Virus record (IMG/VR): IMGVR_UViG_3300020169_002014
Coordinates: 1 to 38,914 of that record
Length of the DNA stretch: 38,914 nucleotides
Origin: a virus
Reading direction: 5' to 3' (one strand)
Under the pieces are notes generated by a model. It worked only from the letters and a program-made list of their open reading frames with translations, was not told where the DNA came from and did no database searches. Of the stretch, positions 494-34,448 are shown piece after piece (the stretch's first letter is position 1; the number at the start of each line of letters is the position of its first letter). Position numbers and translations under genes: made by a program.

Positions 494-1717
494 TCAGCTC
501 GGCTGTATTTGCACCACTATCATTCCTGTTAGATGCCAGACCGCAGCCATCAGGATCCCCATATTGAAGGCGAACTCGTTTGCACAGGATTGCGCGAATA
601 ACTCCCCTTCGAGGAACATGCAGGAGCCTTTGCAGAGCTGAACGACGGGGCATGATATGCATTCAGGCCGGAATGCAAAATGCGTCGCTGTGTTGAGCGC
701 GATCGCGTCAAATTCGTCGACATGGCCGATCTTGTGCTCGCCCTTCGCGCCAGTGTTCTGACAGGTCATGACATTGCCTTGGAGATCGACGGCGATGTGC
801 TCTGGCCGGTCTATGCCGCATTTCTGGCCGAGGGCTGAGATCGGGCGGCGGGTCTTGAGGGATGAGAGGAAGTCTCTGAGCCGCTTGTCGAGCCCGAAGG
901 CTTGGGGGGCGGTGACATGGCTTTCGAACACCGAGCGCCGCAGAGCATGGAGACCCGCCTCATCAAACCGCCCAGGACCAAGCAGCGTGGCTGCGTCATA
1001 GACATTGACCACGCCTTCAAGCGACAGCGGCACATCCAGCCCCAAGCGCGCGTGGAACCAAGCCTTGATCGCGGCGAGATCGTGGTTTTGTGCCGTCAGT
1101 ACGGTGTTGATGCTGACATGGCCCCTGCGCTCGGCCAACAGTGCCTCAATCCAGCGCCGCTGCTCGGGGTTTTCAAGCGGGTCCGGTCCGCGCAGGTCTT
1201 GCCCCGGGCCGTCATGGCTAAGTCCGATGTCGATGTCATATTGCGTGATCAAATCGAGCTTTTCTCGATCGAAAAGCGAGCCATTGGTGATGATAAGGAA
1301 CCGTGCCGACGCGAACCGCTCGGCTAGCGCCGGGATGAGGCGCTTCAGCTTCGCCCAATAGATAAAAGGCTCGCCGCCCCAAAGCTCGATCCGCTCCGGC
1401 GCCCCCTCAAGCCAGCTATCAAGATTGGCGAGGAAAGCCTCAACATCTGTGAGCTTTGAGAGCGTCGCATCGCCAATCTGATGCGCCTGGCTGCAATAGG
1501 AACAGCTGTAATTGCACGACAGCCCCAGCTGGATTTTCAGGACCTTGGGGGCGCGGGATTTGCCCAAGGGCGTCGCCTTCGAGACGCGGAGTGCGGTAGG
1601 CCATTCGCGCTCGTCGATGAGCCCGAGCTCGATGCCTTCGATCTCCGATGTATGCGGGTTGTAGCGAATATCATGACGGCTGCCGTCACGGGCTTCCAGG
1701 GTAAGCGTGTACCACAT
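494..1717 (-). CDS. Radical SAM/SPASM peptide-modifying enzyme
   Basis: A 407-residue radical S-adenosylmethionine enzyme with a SPASM-type C-terminal domain. The SAM [4Fe-4S] motif CNYSCSYC gives CX3CX2C at Cys68, Cys72 and Cys75, followed by a GGEP motif at 114-117. The C-terminal half has Cys300 and Cys319, then CX2CX5CX3C at 353-366 and Cys378, the usual ligand pattern for auxiliary Fe-S clusters. Enzymes of this architecture modify ribosomal peptides or proteins (thioether, C-C crosslinks, epimerisation). Residues 1-60 precede the barrel and could bind substrate. The start overlaps the oxygenase stop by one base (TGATG), implying coupled translation. The Cys-rich 87-residue protein two genes upstream is the obvious candidate substrate. 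Reaction type is inference. Confidence 0.9.
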   Translation of the reverse strand: MWYTLTLEARDGSRHDIRYNPHTSEIEGIELGLIDEREWPTALRVSKATPLGKSRAPKVLKIQLGLSCNYSCSYCSQAHQIGDATLSKLTDVEAFLANLDSWLEGAPERIELWGGEPFIYWAKLKRLIPALAERFASARFLIITNGSLFDREKLDLITQYDIDIGLSHDGPGQDLRGPDPLENPEQRRWIEALLAERRGHVSINTVLTAQNHDLAAIKAWFHARLGLDVPLSLEGVVNVYDAATLLGPGRFDEAGLHALRRSVFESHVTAPQAFGLDKRLRDFLSSLKTRRPISALGQKCGIDRPEHIAVDLQGNVMTCQNTGAKGEHKIGHVDEFDAIALNTATHFAFRPECISCPVVQLCKGSCMFLEGELFAQSCANEFAFNMGILMAAVWHLTGMIVVQIQPS

Positions 1718-2331
1718 CAGTCAAACCACTTCTCTTGCAAATGCTCCGGGATCTCGACCCGGAAGTTCAAAACGACCTGGATATGCGTGACCTCACCCCG
1801 ATAGGGATGCTGATTATGCGGGATCCAAGAGGGGAAGATAACGATCAAACCAGGCGCCGGATTGACGCTGTAGGCGGGCCGGCTCTCGAAGGGGAGCCGC
1901 GGTTGATCGGCATAGCGGCTCGGGTCTTCGAGACAAAAGCGCGGATTGCCGACCGAGTTGATCGGCTGACCCGTCCCGCTTCCTGAGAGAAAGAGCACCG
2001 CTGTGACATCGCCCTCGCGGCTGTCGGCATGGGTGTTGATGAAGGCGCGATCCTCGATGAGAAGCGCGCGGTTCTCGCAATAGGCGGGATCGAGGAACTC
2101 TGCCCCGGGTCCAAGGTAATCCGCCACGCAATCGCGCACGGTCTGAAGCAAGTCCGGCGATTCCGTCATGATCCCGCGAATGCGTCGCTCAGAGGCCGTG
2201 CGGTTGTTCTGCGGTAGGCGCCAGGATTTCGCGTAAAGCGCAGCGACCTGTGCCTCTGCCTCCTGCCCCTCGAGCTGGTAGAAACCCACCCGTGTGGGCC
2301 AGAGCTCTTCGATCTGCCGTCTAACCTGCAT
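1717..2331 (-). CDS. 2OG-Fe(II) oxygenase B, cassette downstream copy
   Basis: A 204-residue protein starting at an ATG with GAGG six bases upstream; an earlier ATG at 2370 would overlap the preceding gene and is less likely. It has the double-stranded beta-helix signature of Fe(II)/2-oxoglutarate dioxygenases: THAD (His101, Asp103) as the HxD pair, and a distal His172 in FPSWIPHNQHP, followed by a strand VVLNFRVEIP. The usual 2OG-binding Arg after the distal His is not at the expected place; Arg178 may serve. Such enzymes hydroxylate amino acid side chains in proteins or peptides. It begins nine bases after the Cys-rich gene and overlaps the radical SAM gene. Substrate is inferred from this position only. 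Confidence 0.82.
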   Translation of the reverse strand: MQVRRQIEELWPTRVGFYQLEGQEAEAQVAALYAKSWRLPQNNRTASERRIRGIMTESPDLLQTVRDCVADYLGPGAEFLDPAYCENRALLIEDRAFINTHADSREGDVTAVLFLSGSGTGQPINSVGNPRFCLEDPSRYADQPRLPFESRPAYSVNPAPGLIVIFPSWIPHNQHPYRGEVTHIQVVLNFRVEIPEHLQEKWFD

Positions 2332-2339
2332 GGGGCACC

Positions 2340-2603
2340 TCAGCAGTAGCACTGGCAATCGCAGTTGCAATTGCAGTTCGTGTAGCTGCGCAGATAGACA
2401 TCGTGATAAGTCAGGTTGCTTTGGAACTCGAGGCCTTTGAAGGACGTTGAGACGATATTGCCAGAGCCGGTTGTTTTATACTCTGTCGCCGTCTTGGTAT
2501 ATTCCCCTGCCGGCAACCCCGCAGCCGGCGCGCCAGAGATCCGCGCCCAGGGCACTTGCCCCGCATCATCAATCACGATGGTGGTGCCAACTTTATAGGC
2601 CAT
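2340..2603 (-). CDS. Cys-rich small protein, candidate modified substrate
   Basis: An 87-residue protein from an ATG with a strong GGAGGA site seven bases upstream; it overlaps the preceding oxygenase gene by eleven bases. The N-terminus (MAYKVGTTIVIDDAGQVPWA) resembles the short VGTT-VIDD beta motif seen in many phage tail fibre proteins. The centre is rich in Thr, Ser, Gly and Tyr. The C-terminus is NCNCNCDCQCYC: six Cys at 77, 79, 81, 83, 85 and 87 alternating with Asn, Asn, Asp, Gln, Tyr, with Cys as last residue. No signal peptide or membrane segment. Flanked by two oxygenases and a radical SAM enzyme, it looks like a RiPP-style precursor, but its leader resembles a structural protein, so a modified tail appendage is more likely than a secreted peptide. 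A metal-binding tail is the main alternative. Confidence 0.85.
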   Translation of the reverse strand: MAYKVGTTIVIDDAGQVPWARISGAPAAGLPAGEYTKTATEYKTTGSGNIVSTSFKGLEFQSNLTYHDVYLRSYTNCNCNCDCQCYC

Positions 2604-3288
2604 GAGAAGATCCTCCGATGTCGATGGGATTTTGGGCATTGGGAAAGCGCAAGCTGACCTGCAACGGCAGGCAAACGCGACGGATCCCGGCGAAGGGGGC
2701 AGAATCATGGGGCACATGGCCCTCAAAAACGACGAGCGTCCCGGTCTGGGGTCGCACATCGAGCCAGCTGCCAGTAAAAATGGCGGGGTTTTGGTTGGGC
2801 CAGAGGCGGTGGCCGCGGCCCGAAGGGTCATAGAACCGTAAGGCGCCCTCGCGATACCGCTGTGGTCCAGCGTCTCCAAAGTCGACTTCGGGGTAATAGG
2901 TCACCACGACGTCGGCGCGTGGATGGGTGTGGGTGAAGATGCCGATCGTCTCGCCGTACCCGGCGCCTTGCACAAAGGGCTCAGTGATGGCCATCAAGCT
3001 TTCGGGCAACTCTGCCCCATAGCCGCGATGCAAGTACTCGGTCATACTGGCGCGGGCCACACTGAGCCAGGCCTCAACAGCCGCATCTCCGCGATGCTCG
3101 GCCAGAAGGTTGTGGCGGATATGGCCAAATGGACTGTCGGCTGTGCCGAGATTGCGCGGATCAGAATCATCAATTACGCGGTGCCGCGCGGCATCTGCGA
3201 TTGCGATCTGAGCCAAGCGCTGGTTTACCTCCGGTGTCAGCAGATCATGCTTTACCAATACGAAGCTGGGATAGAGAGCGGTGAACAT
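2593..3288 (-). CDS. 2OG-Fe(II) oxygenase A (PF13759/TIGR02466-like)
   Basis: A 231-residue protein resembling the 2OG-FeII_Oxy_5 group. Visible motifs are FTHTHPRAD (His120, His122, Asp126) then a VVVTYYP strand, matching the HxHP...YY arrangement of that family, a DP element (FYDPSGRG), and a distal FEGHVPHDS (His194) followed by an Arg pair at 203-204 for 2-oxoglutarate. The C-terminal strand LPLQVSLRFPN is also typical. Cytoplasmic, no signal peptide. The ATG is preceded by GAAGGGG, and the gene starts 12 bases after the upstream 295-residue protein. It overlaps the Cys-rich gene at its end. It shares the fold but little sequence with the second oxygenase, suggesting two separate hydroxylation steps or two target sites. 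Confidence 0.85.
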   Translation of the reverse strand: MFTALYPSFVLVKHDLLTPEVNQRLAQIAIADAARHRVIDDSDPRNLGTADSPFGHIRHNLLAEHRGDAAVEAWLSVARASMTEYLHRGYGAELPESLMAITEPFVQGAGYGETIGIFTHTHPRADVVVTYYPEVDFGDAGPQRYREGALRFYDPSGRGHRLWPNQNPAIFTGSWLDVRPQTGTLVVFEGHVPHDSAPFAGIRRVCLPLQVSLRFPNAQNPIDIGGSSHGL

Positions 3289-3300
3289 GACAGCGCCCCT

Positions 3301-4188
3301 TCAGACCACGGCCACATCAACACGGCCCACAGAGGTGTAATGGTCGGTGTTGATCTTGAGGGAGAGGGTGTCCCCAGACTGCAGCCCCAAGGCGCAAGCC
3401 CGGATCACCGCCTGACCCTGTGCGTCCGTCACGACCCGGCCATGCGGCACATAGCCTGAGAGCACCTCGAGCTTCAGCCGGGTGGCATGGGCGAGTGGCG
3501 CGCCGTCTGCGTTTTCTGCGAGGTGGAGTGGGATCCCAACCCAGCCATCAGGGACGATCGTCAGATCGCTTGGCATGACCACGTGCCAGTAAAAACCAAG
3601 GTAATTGCGTGTGTCGCTCACCTGCACGCTATCATTAAGGACAATCGGGTCTGGTGTCTCACCGATCCCGAAGGATCCTGCAAAGGGCAGGATGATCCGT
3701 GTATCCACAAAGCGCCCCGTGGCTATCGGCATCCAGACATAGCAGGCGATAGCCGAACCACGCTTGGCACGATTACGCAGCCCATATTCGTTTTTGTCCC
3801 AACGCGAGGTGATGAGCCGGTTGTCCCAGGTCGAAAGCATGCCCTCATGATCGATTGGGATCTCAAAACGGCTGTAATCGACGATCTCATCGGCGCCTTG
3901 GAGATCGGTGAGGTCAAAGGCGAGATGGCTGCGATAGGCCAGCAACGCCCCCGGTGCGCCGGGATCCTCAATCGCGTGCCCCAGGAAGAAGGATTTTGGC
4001 ACTCCGGCATCCGAGGGGCCGTCGAGGATTGGCGGGGCCAATGTGGCCATGTCCGTGATGGTAAGACCGTCGAGCGCTGCGACCCGCTGGAAGGCTACAA
4101 GAGTCAGTCGTGTGTATGTGAGCGACACGCCAATCCGCAGACGGCTGTCATGGGTCAGGCAATAAATCCCGGTGTCAATCGCGTGCAT
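3301..4188 (-). CDS. Unknown 295-residue protein, probable tail appendage
   Basis: Start at ATG with AAGGAG seven to eight bases upstream; the first 14 bases overlap the end of the collagen-like fibre gene. I do not recognise a family. The sequence is mixed beta-rich with few Lys and many aromatic residues, no signal peptide and no membrane segment. Patches such as [19 protein letters not shown] and the C-terminal [20 protein letters not shown] look like beta-sandwich or carbohydrate-binding modules. Position directly after two fibre genes and directly before the oxygenase/Cys-rich/radical SAM cassette suggests a fibre-tip or adaptor protein. It could also be an additional component or target of that cassette. 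Confidence 0.7.
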
Positions 4189-5035
4189 CGAGGCACTCCT
4201 TCATGTCGGTGAGTTCCGTGTGCAGATCCTTGATCGCCTCGACGAGGAGACCGATGAGATTGCCGTAAGCGAGACGCAGGAGCCCATCGACTTCGGTGAC
4301 GGCTTCGGGCGCAACGGCCTGCACCTCCTGCGCAAGTAGACCCATCTGGCGGGGCTCGCAGCGGTCCAAGCGATAGGTGACGCCGGTTAGCGTCAGAACC
4401 TTGACCAGCGCATCAGAGATGGGTGTAATCTCGGACTTGAGCCTGAGATCCGAAGACGAGACGAAGTTCGACGCAGTCACCGGGCCAGTGAAGGTCGCCC
4501 CCGTCAGTTTGGCGAAAGCGGAAGCATGGCTTCCATCCAGAAGGTCTGCATCAATGCCAGAGCCTGATCCATCCACGGTCACCAGCTTGGCGAGCACCTG
4601 GGTCGCCGTATCCGGAGACCCATCTGCGCCAGCGGGGCCTTGGGGTCCGGTCGCACCGGATGGCCCCGTGGGACCAGTAGGCCCCTGCGGTCCTGTTGCG
4701 CCAGTGGCACCAGTATCACCCTTCAGATTCACATAAGCGCCCCACGCCGTGCCGGAGTAGAACCGCAGACTAGTGCCAGACCATTGATGCGCCGGCGTTG
4801 GACCCGTGACCCCGGTTGGGCCGGCTGGACCTTGCGGACCAGTAGCACCTGTGGCCCCAGTTGCACCCTGAGGTCCTGTCTGTCCAAGCTCGACAACAGT
4901 TTCCGTGCCGGAGACACGCTTCAGGTAGAGCTTGCCATCTGGCACATTGACCGCCAGTTCCCCGGCTGCAAGTTGCGCCGCTGTCGGCACCCGGCCCGCG
5001 ACTGTCGTGCGTTTCAGAAGAAGCGTATTGGCCAT
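4175..5035 (-). CDS. Collagen-like tail fibre with S74 chaperone domain
   Basis: A 286-residue fibre protein. The start MANTLLLKR matches the start of the preceding fibre (MANTIQLKR), so the ATG at 5035 is preferred over a TTG two codons earlier. An N-terminal attachment-like module (1-50) is followed by Gly-X-Y repeats at about 51-79 and 106-140, split by a short globular insert. A C-terminal intramolecular chaperone domain of the Peptidase_S74 type begins near residue 193 with [11 protein letters not shown] and contains [11 protein letters not shown] and [16 protein letters not shown]74 domains trimerise fibres and then self-cleave. Pro is mostly in the X position of the triplets and Thr in the Y position. 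It is translated two bases after the upstream fibre gene ends. Confidence 0.88.
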
Positions 5036-5037
5036 GA

Positions 5038-6021
5038 TCAAAATGTCCCGCCATCCAGGGTGATGCCGTTGATTGTGCCACCCGTGATGGCGACGGCATT
5101 TGCGTTTTGCGTGGCCATGGAGCCCAGTCCGAGGTTCGAGCGCGCTGTCGCCTTGTTCGCTACATCAGACAGGTTCGATGCCGCGGAGAGTTTGCCTGCT
5201 AGAGCATTGGTCACGGTCGTTGCGAAGTTCGGATCATCGCCGAGGGCTGCCGCCAATTCGTTTAGCGTGTCCATGGCGCCGGGAGCGGCATCAATCAGCG
5301 CCCCGAACGCGGCGGCTACAAAAGCTGTTGTTGCGATCTGGGTGGTGTTCGTGCCGGTCGTTGCCGTCGGAGCCGTCGGCGATCCTGTCAGCGCAGGTGA
5401 TACAAGCGGCGCCTTGGCATCGAGCGCTGTTTGCAGCCCCGTTACCTGTGCAATCGAATGACCATGGCTGGAGGGCGTAAAACTCGTGGGCTTACCCGTG
5501 ATCCCAGACCAGGGTGCTGCATCTGCAACTTCCGCCGCATCGACCTTGCCATCATTGTCTGTGTCATAGATGGATTTTGCCATGTCTCCGGCGCCAAAGC
5601 CGGCAATGGCCTCATTGACGAAGGCTGTCGTTGCAATCTGTGTCGAGTTCGTTCCCGCAACCGCTGTTGGTGCTGTGGGCGATCCTGTCAGCGCAGGCGA
5701 AGCCAACGGCGCCTTGGCGGCTAACAGGCTGTCGAGTTGGGACTTGCGGACAAGGTCGGTTCCGCCGCTGGCATCCTGGCTAGACTTCGGAACGAGCGAA
5801 AAAGTCTTGGCCCCACCAATAGTCTGGGTGCCGGTGAGCGCCAGAAAGCCGCCCGTACCCGCAATCGGGACAATCGATGTGGCATTGCCAGCCCCGTCGT
5901 CGCCCTTGCCGGCATAGACCGTGTTGTCGACCTCGTTGTGGGCAAGTTCTCCCGATTTCAGTGCAGCGGGCGCACCTGCCACGCCGGAGACGCGGCGTTT
6001 AAGCTGAATCGTATTGGCCAT
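5038..6021 (-). CDS. Tail fibre protein with repeated module and EF-hand loop
   Basis: A 327-residue phage fibre. Residues 1-35 form a fibre-type N-terminal module ([23 protein letters not shown]). A segment starting [18 protein letters not shown] occurs twice, at residues 103-135 and 203-235, exactly 100 residues apart. Between them sits a canonical 12-residue EF-hand calcium loop ([12 protein letters not shown], residues 153-164) and an SSHGHS motif. The C-terminus has the [20 protein letters not shown] fibre motif and ends in Gly-Thr-rich strands. No S74 domain. It overlaps the preceding collagen-like gene by one base and is followed two bases later by the S74-bearing fibre, so these probably assemble on the same tail appendage. 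Confidence 0.85.
5317..5715 (-). repeat. Two-copy direct repeat inside fibre gene
   Basis: Copies at 5617-5715 and 5317-5415 encode the 33-residue KAP...AFV module. They lie 300 bases apart and share long identical stretches, for example around GGCGATCCTGTCAGCGCAGG. The repeat is a likely site of in-frame recombination altering fibre length. Confidence 0.8.
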
Positions 6022-6227
6022 CAGAAAAATCCTCCATTGATGGGGGTGTCGGCGGGCAGGATTGTGATGCCTGGATCACCTTGATCGCCCTTGTCGCCTT
6101 GCGGGCCCGTTGCCCCTTGCGGTCCGGGCTGACCGCCAAGGCGAAGGCGGAAGGGTCCAGTGACGACGCGCACCTTGATGGGGGCTGTGATCATGATCGG
6201 GCCTGTTTGCCGGATCACTTCGCTCAT
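6021..6227 (-). CDS. Short collagen-like protein
   Basis: A 68-residue protein overlapping the previous stop by ATGA. The N-terminal 30 residues are beta-prone (PIMITAPIKVRVVTGPFRLR); residues 31-54 are Gly-X-Y triplets with charged Asp and Lys and two Y-position prolines (GQP, GDP). It ends INGGFF. It is probably a short fibre adaptor or the N-terminal part of the following fibre system, since the next gene overlaps its stop by one base. The end of the protein (TPINGGFF) resembles the TLDGGTF end of the next protein, suggesting a shared C-terminal docking motif. Confidence 0.75.
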   Translation of the reverse strand: MSEVIRQTGPIMITAPIKVRVVTGPFRLRLGGQPGPQGATGPQGDKGDQGDPGITILPADTPINGGFF

Positions 6228-31237: not shown

Positions 31238-31627
31238 TCAGGCCCTCTCGCCGTTGGCCTCGAGGTGGTAGGGTGCGATCAGGGAGGCGGCTGGGATTTT
31301 CCAGCTGGTGTTGATCTTCTGGATCATGCGCAGCGTGAGCGGACGCTTGCGGTTCATGATTTCGGACGCGCGAGACTTGCCGCCGACCAGCTTGGCCAGA
31401 TCACTTTGCTTCTTCTTTTTGATGTCCATAAAGACCTTGAGCGTCTCGATTGGATCGAGCGCCTCGACGGGGTATTCACGGTTCTCATAGGCTTCGATGA
31501 GATCGGTCAGGATGTCGAAGCGGTCGGCTTCTTTCGTTCCAGGTGCGGGCGGTGTATCAAAGTATTGTTCGATTTCCGCAAGCGCCCAATCCAGATCGTC
31601 ATCGGCTCGAATGGCACGGAGTTCCAT
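31238..31627 (-). CDS. HigA-type HTH antitoxin-like protein
   Basis: 129 residues, start at MELRAIRADDDLDWALAEIE with AGGAAG upstream. The IRADDDLDWALAEIEQYF opening, the acidic middle (GTKEADRFDILTDLIEAYEN) and an Xre HTH with SRASEIMNRKRPLTLRMIQK are the COG5499 HigA pattern. No HigB is next to it; the partner upstream in the operon is a HipA-like kinase 59 bases away. It may be that kinase's antitoxin. Confidence 0.8.
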   Translation of the reverse strand: MELRAIRADDDLDWALAEIEQYFDTPPAPGTKEADRFDILTDLIEAYENREYPVEALDPIETLKVFMDIKKKKQSDLAKLVGGKSRASEIMNRKRPLTLRMIQKINTSWKIPAASLIAPYHLEANGERA

Positions 31628-31686
31628 TTGTTCTTCCTGGTTTACTTGGCGCTTGGTTGCGCCGCGCTCATCATGTTCGGCGTGGG

Positions 31687-33522
31687 TTATTTCCAAGCTG
31701 CAAGGCGTGTGCGGCACAAGTCCAGCATCTGCTCTGCCTTGGCGGTTATTTCTGCCTCAAGGTTTGGCACATTCGGCAAGACGATCTGATTAAGCCCAGC
31801 GCCTAACTTTTCGACAAGTTCATCCATAGCGGCATTGGCAGCCCGTGCTGTGATCCCCGCCGTGGCGGCAAAGTGTAAAAAGTCTGCACGGCGTAACCTG
31901 TCGTCCTTGCCATTCAGCTTTAGCGCCATGCGATCATTCTCCAGTCTTGGAAATACGCGAGTCGTGACCGCATCATAAAGCGGTGCCATCCTCACGCTCG
32001 CAAATCTGTCCGCTCCTGATGCTGCTATCTTGAGTAAGGCAAGATTTTTTAGATGCATGTCGCCATCGGCAATGAGCCACGCAAACAGTGCGCGCCTCAA
32101 TATGACGGTCAGGTCTTCCTCAGGCGCGGTTGAAAGCGCGCGGACGGCGCGCGCAATCCGCTCAATCGTACTGTCGTATTTAGCTTCAGGTGGCAAATCG
32201 AGAACCGAGCAGGTGTCTTCAAGCGCAATGCGGCGCTCATCATCGGGACTGCAGCGGATATCAAAGCGTTCTACAATCAACGCTGGCGGCATACCGTCTG
32301 GCATGCCTATCAATGCAATGGCCGGAGCTTCAAGTCCGGCAGCTTGCCCCAAGGTCATCGACAAATACTCGATGATCGGCAGGGCCTGAAATCCGCCCGT
32401 GCCGGCAGGTTTAAGGATATGCGTGAAGGGGTCTCGCATGCAGGGAAAAAGGCGCCCTTCTTGATCAAGAAACATCGGCGCCTTGATCTGTACGCCAGAC
32501 AGGCGCGGTGTCTGCGTGTTTACAAACAGGCGCGCGAGATTGTCTTCAAAACTGTTTTCAATGTTATCGCGCCCCGGCCCCTCATAGCTCCCGGTAAATA
32601 TGCCTTTGGTGCTGAAATCACTTAGCCGAGTTGAAAGGCGATCTGTCGGCAGTCCTGCGATCTCGGCGGCATCAGAGCTGATCGTGATGTTCGACATATA
32701 GCGCTTTCCAGAGCGCAGCAGTGCGCGCTCATCATTCTCCTTGACCACGCGTTCCAGCCAGCCTTCAGGCAGGAGTGAGAGAATGAACGCAGGTAGTTTC
32801 CCAGGCCTGCGTTGTTGAACCAACGGTAGATTGAAGTTCTTCTCTGCTGTCCAACGCCACTCAAAGCCGTCATGACGCAGCTTGCCAATCGGCTGGCTGT
32901 GCCAGGCCACCGTTAAAATGAGCTCGGCTTCATTTCGAGTTTCAATCAAAGACGGTGATTTCAGAAGGTAGCGCTCGGCTTGCTCGCCTTCGCGGTACCA
33001 TTCATTCTGACGCGCAAGCGTCCAAAGCGCATCCGCAGCGCTTTTCGGGTCGCCATATTCTTCAATCAATCGCGCCGCAAGTGACGCGCGCATTTCTTCA
33101 TTAATGGAGGCAGCATGTTCGCTGCGCAGACGAAAAGCTTCGAGGCATCGTTGCCGCAGCGAAGAGACATCAATGCGGAACTCACCTAGGCCGTCCGCGA
33201 TAAGCGCGGGTGCGGTCGAGGGATTGGCGGGCGCGATATTCTGGATGATCTCCAGCGTCCTGATCCGTTTGCGCTGTGAACGCGGTCCGCTAACGAACAA
33301 TCGGCCATCCCGCGTGGGTGCGAGCAGCACGGCGCTCGCAGCGGACAGGTAAGCACGCGGATATAGGTAGTTGGCGATGCGTATGGCATGTCGCAGCACG
33401 ACAGCATCGACATCTTCGGCAGCATCGACGTAGATGCCTCGCATAAGCTGCACGATCCGGCCTGTTTCGGCCAGGTAGTAAGCACGATCCTTGTCCAGAT
33501 TTTCACCAACGAGATAGAGCAT
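31687..33522 (-). CDS. HipA-like kinase toxin with AbiEi-like N-terminus
   Basis: 611 residues. Residues 1-130 look like a winged-helix AbiEi/transcription-factor-like domain (ETGRIVQLMRGIYVDAAEDV, then LYPRAYLSAASAVLLAPTRD). The HipA kinase domain follows from about residue 200: HILKPAG near 367 (ATP Lys), IEYLSMTLGQAAGLEAPA, FDIRCSPDDE, catalytic DGDMHLKN near 487 and APLYDAVTT. HipA kinases phosphorylate a tRNA synthetase and stop growth. There is no HipB; the next gene is HigA-like. Longer than E. coli HipA because of the N-terminal domain. Confidence 0.88.
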   Translation of the reverse strand: MLYLVGENLDKDRAYYLAETGRIVQLMRGIYVDAAEDVDAVVLRHAIRIANYLYPRAYLSAASAVLLAPTRDGRLFVSGPRSQRKRIRTLEIIQNIAPANPSTAPALIADGLGEFRIDVSSLRQRCLEAFRLRSEHAASINEEMRASLAARLIEEYGDPKSAADALWTLARQNEWYREGEQAERYLLKSPSLIETRNEAELILTVAWHSQPIGKLRHDGFEWRWTAEKNFNLPLVQQRRPGKLPAFILSLLPEGWLERVVKENDERALLRSGKRYMSNITISSDAAEIAGLPTDRLSTRLSDFSTKGIFTGSYEGPGRDNIENSFEDNLARLFVNTQTPRLSGVQIKAPMFLDQEGRLFPCMRDPFTHILKPAGTGGFQALPIIEYLSMTLGQAAGLEAPAIALIGMPDGMPPALIVERFDIRCSPDDERRIALEDTCSVLDLPPEAKYDSTIERIARAVRALSTAPEEDLTVILRRALFAWLIADGDMHLKNLALLKIAASGADRFASVRMAPLYDAVTTRVFPRLENDRMALKLNGKDDRLRRADFLHFAATAGITARAANAAMDELVEKLGAGLNQIVLPNVPNLEAEITAKAEQMLDLCRTRLAAWK

Positions 33523-34040: not shown

Positions 34041-34448
34041 CTACTCGATATCTGGATAGATATTTGCCTCGAAATAATCTGCCAAGTCACTGACGCTCAG
34101 CTCGCCGGCGACACGCGCGCGCAGCTTGGCCTCAAGTTCGTTCTCGGAAACATCCAAGAAAGAACTATTCATTGCAATAAATGTCAAAGACGCGATCGCA
34201 CCCGCCCTCTTGTTGCCATCCATCAACGCGTGCCGTGTCGCGATGCCATCGTACATCAAGGCGGCCAGGTAGGATAATCGTGCTTCTGGCTCGTATTCAG
34301 CGGCTGACCTTGCTCGCTCGAGGCCTGCTTCAAAGGCATCGCGGTCGTTCAAAACCATTCGATGCCCCATGGTCTCGATAAATGCTGAAGTCTCGTCCAA
34401 GATAGCATCGGCATTGGGCCAAGTGTAGCCATTGTTCTCCGAGGTCAC
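34041..34448 (-). CDS. doc: Doc-type Fic toxin
   Basis: 135 residues with the Fic/Doc motif HALMDGNKRA (His73 to Arg81), the kinase-like HxFx(D/E)xNKR variant. Doc phosphorylates elongation factor Tu. Short, single Fic domain without an inhibitory helix, as for Doc. ATG overlaps the antitoxin stop. Confidence 0.88.
   Translation of the reverse strand: MTSENNGYTWPNADAILDETSAFIETMGHRMVLNDRDAFEAGLERARSAAEYEPEARLSYLAALMYDGIATRHALMDGNKRAGAIASLTFIAMNSSFLDVSENELEAKLRARVAGELSVSDLADYFEANIYPDIE

Follow-up and report, generated by a model that had tools for sequence, protein, structure and literature searches.

A radical SAM/SPASM enzyme paired with a C-terminal X-Cys tag of phage tail fibres: a proposed fibre-tip maturation module

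The IMG/VR virus record IMGVR_UViG_3300020169_002014 was analyzed over its whole length of 38,914 nucleotides (the window). Judging from its open reading frame (ORF) content, this 38.9-kb record is a siphovirus-like prophage; its late genes are on the minus strand and an integrase ORF is at its right end. The late tail operon contains genes for a radical S-adenosylmethionine (SAM)/SPASM enzyme (P0001), two 2-oxoglutarate (2OG) oxygenases (P0002 and P0004) and a protein of 87 residues (P0003) that ends in NCNCNCDCQCYC. Such an end, in which Cys alternates with another residue, mostly Asn, is called the X-Cys tag here. We think it likely that these genes are a phage-encoded fibre-tip maturation module in which the radical SAM enzyme cross-links or oxidises the tag. 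The proposal is based on gene content, catalytic motifs, the reciprocal co-occurrence of enzyme and tag, the position of the tag and the variety of the fibres that carry it. The four genes and the tag codons are:

494..1717, minus strand: radical SAM/SPASM enzyme P0001, 407 aa, PHROG 1802 family, proposed modifier of the X-Cys tag
1717..2331, minus strand: 2OG-Fe(II) oxygenase OGb (P0002), 204 aa, HxD...H, PF13759 and PHROG 81
2340..2603, minus strand: proposed tail tip protein P0003, 87 residues, bears the X-Cys tag, proposed substrate
2343..2378, minus strand: codons of the C-terminal tag NCNCNCDCQCYC, with the stop codon directly after them (read from the sequence)
2593..3288, minus strand: 2OG-Fe(II) oxygenase OGa (P0004), 231 aa, HxH...H, PF13759 and PHROG 81

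An initial annotation of this region, made from the letters alone, described four overlapping genes for these enzymes and a Cys-rich protein. The functions hold, with complete motifs, intact ligands and the NCNCNCDCQCYC end. All four ORFs (494-1717, 1717-2331, 2340-2603 and 2593-3288) are intact and tightly coupled, and their coordinates give overlaps of 11 nt (2593-3288 with 2340-2603) and 1 nt (1717-2331 with 494-1717); the junction between 2340-2603 and 1717-2331 is a gap of 8 nt, and not an overlap.

P0001 matches the Pfam family Radical_SAM (PF04055, 4.8e-10), the SPASM model TIGR04085 (31.9 bits, above the cut-off of 27) and PHROG 1802, a radical SAM domain-containing protein family (3.4e-54). 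Both features expected of a maturase are present, the CxxxCxxC motif (C68xxxC72xxC75) and the SPASM auxiliary-cluster cysteines (C300-x13-G-x4-C319, C353xxC356x5C362x3C366 and C378), and all of these residues are invariant in 34 diverse homologues. The folds in the PDB that best fit the AlphaFold model (predicted local distance difference test score, pLDDT, 92) are CteB, ChlB, an anaerobic sulfatase-maturating enzyme (anSME), TigE and SuiB. CteB and SuiB are peptide maturases and anSME acts on Cys. The best NCBIfam match is PapB (NF047865), at 58.7 bits against a cut-off of 340, and P0001 is far under every cut-off among the named NCBIfam maturase models shown for ribosomally synthesised and post-translationally modified peptides (RiPPs). 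In a collection of 50,697 phage records, the only clear full-length relatives are in Achromobacter phages JWF (which also has a duplicate RefSeq record) and 2-1.

The linkage between the enzyme and the tag can be followed in both directions. A search with an alignment of diverse radical SAM proteins found relatives in bacterial genomes (97) and in viral contigs (at least 341), and the best 80 of each set were taken forward. Near-identical loci were collapsed at 90% identity, which leaves some kinship, and the viral contigs are fragments; 71 non-redundant loci with at least 4 kb upstream form the forward set. A locus was counted as tagged if one of its ORFs had an (X-Cys)3+ repeat at the C-terminus, or such a repeat and then a Hint domain. 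Tagged ORFs are present at 53 of the 71 loci, and at 50 of the 60 with an enzyme score of at least 400 bits. As a control, 5 of 4209 opposite-strand ORFs (about 0.1%) end in the tag; these were counted in a wider set of 91 distinct loci, to which the enzyme search contributed 71 and the tag pattern 20.

For the reverse search, viral contigs were scanned with a DNA pattern for NCNCNCxC. In 67 ORFs among the matches listed, the motif either lies at the C-terminus or close to it, or precedes a Hint domain; a radical SAM profile match is on the locus in 51 of these and elsewhere in the record in seven. Of the other nine, eight are followed by no more than 1.2 kb of sequence, and the ninth, L230 (L-numbers are the locus labels of this analysis), has 68 residues and is probably spurious. 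Accordingly, the enzyme is in the same record for 58 of the 59 assessable viral ORFs among the matches listed; a minority of these enzymes belong to divergent radical SAM subfamilies (e.g., L226, L233 and L318). Chance or an annotation artefact of Cys codons was rejected on the linkage counts and the control. A precursor-like Cys-rich C-terminus beside a maturase is thus a reciprocal feature of these loci, and the pairing of the radical SAM enzyme with the X-Cys tag as its predicted substrate is well supported. The recurrence next to fibre genes that was expected in Rhodobacteraceae prophages extends far beyond that family, and the contrary prospect, a radical SAM gene always lacking the Cys-rich gene, is contradicted in both directions.

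The proteins that carry the tag range from about 60 to more than 600 aa and have unrelated N-termini. Several match tail-fibre PHROGs, two (L184 and L188) have long collagen repeats, and the N-terminus of L188 is a T7 tail-fibre N-terminal domain (PF03906, 3.1e-22). Therefore, the tag is a C-terminal module of tail fibres. Its X residues are Asn (62%), Ala (15%) and Asp (10%) in an unbiased set of 277 positions, from which Gly and Pro are absent. A Hint autoprocessing domain (PF05203, 3e-12, in JWF) comes directly after the tag in Achromobacter phages JWF and 2-1, in Burkholderia paludis (L097) and in several viral contigs, and the distribution of this form in the enzyme tree requires more than one change. 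Presumably, autocleavage in these relatives would expose the tag as a C-terminus, the state already present in the window; no protease would be needed in the window because the tag already is the C-terminus.

These observations also bear on a true RiPP, for example a bacteriocin or a signal, made by the prophage and not part of the virion. The enzyme types are those of RiPP pathways, and one chromosomal sister clade of the radical SAM enzyme occurs with YcaO and nitroreductase-like domains. YcaO cyclodehydratases are enzymes of RiPP pathways. In this clade (L068, L070 and L076, from Ramlibacter and a gammaproteobacterial metagenome-assembled genome), which is a single group in the enzyme tree, the YcaO gene, in two cases fused to a nitroreductase-like domain, lies upstream of the radical SAM gene at a distance of about 2.5 kb, and the clade probably represents an undescribed RiPP cluster. 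The cassette of the window, however, sits in a tail operon beside fibre genes and has no exporter, leader protease or immunity gene, and elsewhere the tag terminates full-length tail fibres, including the one with the T7 domain, which makes a RiPP highly improbable. The suggestion that a tail appendage, and not a secreted peptide, is modified is supported. The absence of protease, exporter and immunity genes, also remarked on earlier, is correct for the cassette; the protease part is not general, given the Hint domains that follow the tag in JWF, 2-1 and others.

The tag is constant among the close relatives of P0003. Twenty-seven viral relatives were found, 25 of them in a close Rhodobacterales-type group with conserved gene order, and all 23 complete relatives in this group keep the C-terminal XC repeat, usually as NCNC[N/A]CRC. 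The order is g6021, fibre, S74/collagen fibre, Ig-like (immunoglobulin-like) protein, OGa, Cys protein, OGb and radical SAM, and it is conserved in all of the 30 distinct viral contigs (L002-L026 and five more) except four that end at a contig edge. Because the order is kept across 30 distinct contigs, the linkage within the cassette is not due to chance. P0003 had been said to open like a tail fibre. This is not confirmed for P0003 itself, which has no match in Pfam, NCBIfam or PHROG and, like a family-like N-terminal query, none in the 50,697 phage records, but tagged proteins at related loci do match fibre families and lend it indirect support.

We predict the following sequence of events. 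The late tail operon would supply a protein with the tag as its C-terminus, a small fibre-tip protein here and a full tail fibre in other phages. The radical SAM/SPASM enzyme would recognize the tag and oxidise it by radical chemistry. The products would most likely be thioether cross-links from each Cys sulfur to the beta-carbon of an adjoining Asn, Asp or Ala, formed within a chain or between the chains of a fibre trimer. In the window, the two 2OG oxygenases of the operon would hydroxylate further residues in the tag or in adjoining parts of the fibre. The resulting rigid, sulfur-rich tip may then serve adsorption or virion stability. Cross-links and hydroxylations that might stabilise or extend an adhesive tip had been proposed in the initial annotation as well.

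Thioether formation is the likeliest chemistry, and we give it about half of the weight, with formylglycine, epimerisation or another oxidation sharing the rest. It is favored because X is limited to residues with an accessible beta-carbon hydrogen, because of the fold kinship with CteB and SuiB and because of the Cys-Asp links made by PapB. The absence of Gly and Pro at X fits chemistry at the beta-carbon better than at the alpha-carbon. PapB joins Cys to the beta-carbon of Asp and tolerates Cys-Asp separations of zero to six (PMC9413430).

A different outcome would be that the enzyme converts tag cysteines to formylglycine as an anSME does, and that the aldehydes on the tip could react with amines of the cell surface. 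Structures of anSME with bound Cys peptides (4k36-4k39) are among the best folds, anSME is the second-best PDB sequence match and the JWF homologue is annotated as an anSME. Yet the target of an anSME is a single Cys within a CxPxR-type motif, whereas the tag is an array of XC dipeptides with no Pro/Arg rule, and such chemistry does not need X to be restricted to Asn, Ala and Asp. We find it improbable. Alternatively, the tag may bind a metal or an Fe-S cluster, with cysteines of three chains as ligands of iron or zinc at the apex of the fibre while the enzymes act elsewhere or on other residues. Metal-capped phage spike tips are known and alternating cysteines are plausible ligands; simple ligation, however, needs no dedicated radical SAM enzyme, and tag and enzyme are nearly inseparable. 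There is little likelihood of this either.

The 2OG oxygenases display a less constant pattern. OGb matches PF13759 just past the cut-off (5.3e-6) and PHROG 81 at 7.3e-8; OGa is just short of the PF13759 cut-off (3.2e-5) and matches PHROG 81 at 1.9e-8. Both keep their iron ligands, H101/D103/H172 in OGb and H120/H122/H194 in OGa, with Asp and His, respectively, as the middle ligand. Among 56 sequences of the family, both flanking His residues are invariant and the middle ligand is His in 30, Asp in 17, Glu in seven and Ala in two. A PF13759-type oxygenase is present at 45 of the 91 distinct loci, about half, so that the oxygenases are accessories; the constant core consists of the radical SAM enzyme and the C-terminal X-Cys tag. 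The four-gene composition described at first is therefore not the constant unit, and it left out the Ig-like gene, which belongs to the cassette as well.

OGa and OGb might instead be prolyl hydroxylases of the neighboring collagen-like fibre (4175-5041) that have no connection with the Cys tag. The fibre is directly upstream in the window, and loci with a 2OG gene have collagen repeats nearby more often (12 of 48) than loci without one (3 of 43; p = 0.025, with no correction for kinship). However, 36 of the 48 2OG loci have no collagen repeat in the stretch examined, and in the window and its relatives the Cys gene lies between the two 2OG genes. Collagen prolines were thus rejected as a general 2OG substrate and retained as a rival for the window only, where we regard them as a rather unlikely explanation.

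Upstream of the cassette, the late operon continues with these genes:

3301..4188, minus strand: conserved partner with a C-terminal Ig-like domain, 295 aa, family recurs at radical SAM loci
4175..5041, minus strand: tail fibre with collagen-like repeats (PF01391, 1.8e-10) and a Peptidase_S74 chaperone domain (PF13884, 2e-12), tail-fibre PHROGs to 4.7e-30
5038..6021, minus strand: tail fibre protein, tail-fibre PHROG 454 (7.2e-54)
6021..6227, minus strand: short collagen-like protein of the same late operon, weak collagen/tail-fibre matches, place conserved in relatives

Relatives of the Ig-like protein (3301-4188) are present at 58 of the 91 distinct loci. Its AlphaFold model (pLDDT 89) matches only generic Ig domains in the PDB, and BFVD has unnamed Caudovirales homologues to 1.7e-22. 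Promoter and terminator scans found nothing over shuffled background that clearly divides the operon. Elsewhere on the minus strand of the window, a HipA-like kinase ORF (31687-33522), a HigA/XRE-like antitoxin ORF (31238-31717) and a small Fic/Doc-like protein with the motif HALMDGNKRAG (34041-34448) were noticed by eye.

Other accessories are more sporadic. A further radical SAM ORF is present at eight of the 91 loci. In three large phages, the viral contigs L172, L175 and L183, which are a single group in the enzyme tree, tryptophan halogenase genes (PF04820: 2.7e-69, 4.9e-77 and 7e-42) are beside the radical SAM gene, together with further 2OG-type ORFs (PF13640 confirmed in L183). A glycosyltransferase-like ORF was seen by eye around these loci. 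A virion substrate may be one possibility for these halogenases.

Several points weigh against the fibre-tip maturation module. A few radical SAM relatives have no tag nearby, namely a Bacteriovoracaceae clade (L096 and L099-L102), the YcaO-paired chromosomal clade and some large phages, among them L172, where a giant C-X repeat lies upstream at about 6 kb; three other untagged copies are damaged or truncated (L066, L095 and L103). No RiPP recognition element (RRE) precedes the radical SAM domain in the AlphaFold model of P0001, which has only beta strands and no helix-turn-helix there (standalone RRE proteins were not searched separately). The related folds do not single out one chemistry. 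In database searches, P0003 did not match any tail fibre directly. It is unusual for oxygen-sensitive and oxygen-dependent enzyme classes to occur together. Finally, the presence of a 2OG gene does not correlate significantly with the Asn content of the tag (p = 0.69 for all loci; 0.08 for the unbiased set), a correlation that hydroxylation of Asn by the oxygenases would lead one to expect.

Some other Cys-rich proteins were seen in the course of this work. The repeat in the L172 ORF is very long (NCNCKCKCQCKCKCKC...), has more than 25 cysteines and is Lys-rich. In L186, a collagen-like protein located about 1.3 kb downstream from the start of the radical SAM gene has an internal CQCDCVCACECQCDCLC array in place of the C-terminal tag. 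In L233, L240 and L318, several divergent radical SAM ORFs have small proteins with the end ...DDYST[A/N]CNCNCNC... nearby; these form a separate branch with the same theme. Short proteins in L220-L223, L227, L237 and similar loci have an internal, not C-terminal, KCKNCNCNCHC or KCENCNCNCHC motif; they are apparently a different small Cys-rich family that fits the DNA pattern by chance. The genome of Thalassobacter stenotrophicus CECT 5294 has the radical SAM gene in at least four copies (L056, L062, L065 and L103); three adjoin tagged proteins and one is partial at a contig end.

Among described systems, the ranthipeptide/sactipeptide maturases PapB, CteB and SuiB are the closest, with the closest folds and best profiles, and they have radical SAM and SPASM domains and a Cys-rich substrate in common with the window. 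However, P0001 has no RRE and misses all specific NCBIfam models shown widely, and its proposed substrate is the C-terminus of a phage fibre and not a leader-core peptide, with no exporter or leader protease. Since neither the RRE nor leader cleavage and export of a free peptide was found, the system is not filed as a RiPP cluster; it would work like one, on a virion protein. In the His-Xaa-Ser system, radical SAM enzymes are paired with a protein bearing a short residue repeat, which resembles the tag system. The HxsB/HxsC profiles match P0001 weakly, far under the cut-off, and the repeat here is X-Cys instead of His-X-Ser and is on the fibre tips of phages. The anSME systems resemble the window in a close fold and in a SPASM enzyme that targets a protein Cys, but there is no sulfatase and no CxPxR motif here, and the targets are repeated. 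PHROG 1802 (category other), which contains P0001 and the enzymes of Achromobacter phages 2-1 and JWF, has no function or substrate attached in the sources searched. OGa and OGb belong to the PF13759/PHROG 81 phage oxygenases, which PHROGs places in the category moron, auxiliary metabolic gene and host takeover; this pair flanks a proposed fibre-tip gene, which suggests a virion substrate and not host metabolism. A search of the open-licence literature found no description of a phage radical SAM enzyme with a tail protein as its substrate, and none of a phage system with this composition, in agreement with the initial annotation.

More broadly, it seems reasonably probable that tailed phages of several bacterial groups share a modular virion maturation, in which unrelated fibres have an X-Cys tag at the C-terminus and a dedicated radical SAM/SPASM enzyme rewrites it; 2OG oxygenases, Hint self-cleavage, a second radical SAM enzyme and flavin halogenases would be optional parts, and fibre tips with non-canonical cross-links for host attachment would be the result. 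This suggests a function for the widespread unassigned family PHROG 1802 and likewise for a share of the 2OG oxygenases and halogenases that environmental phages carry, some of which currently count as auxiliary metabolic genes. New peptide cross-linking enzymes could also come from the modular C-terminal tag. If the proposal is true, phage biology would gain a new layer, in which enzymes use radical chemistry to rewrite a receptor-binding tip, and host recognition may not follow from the sequence of the tip alone.

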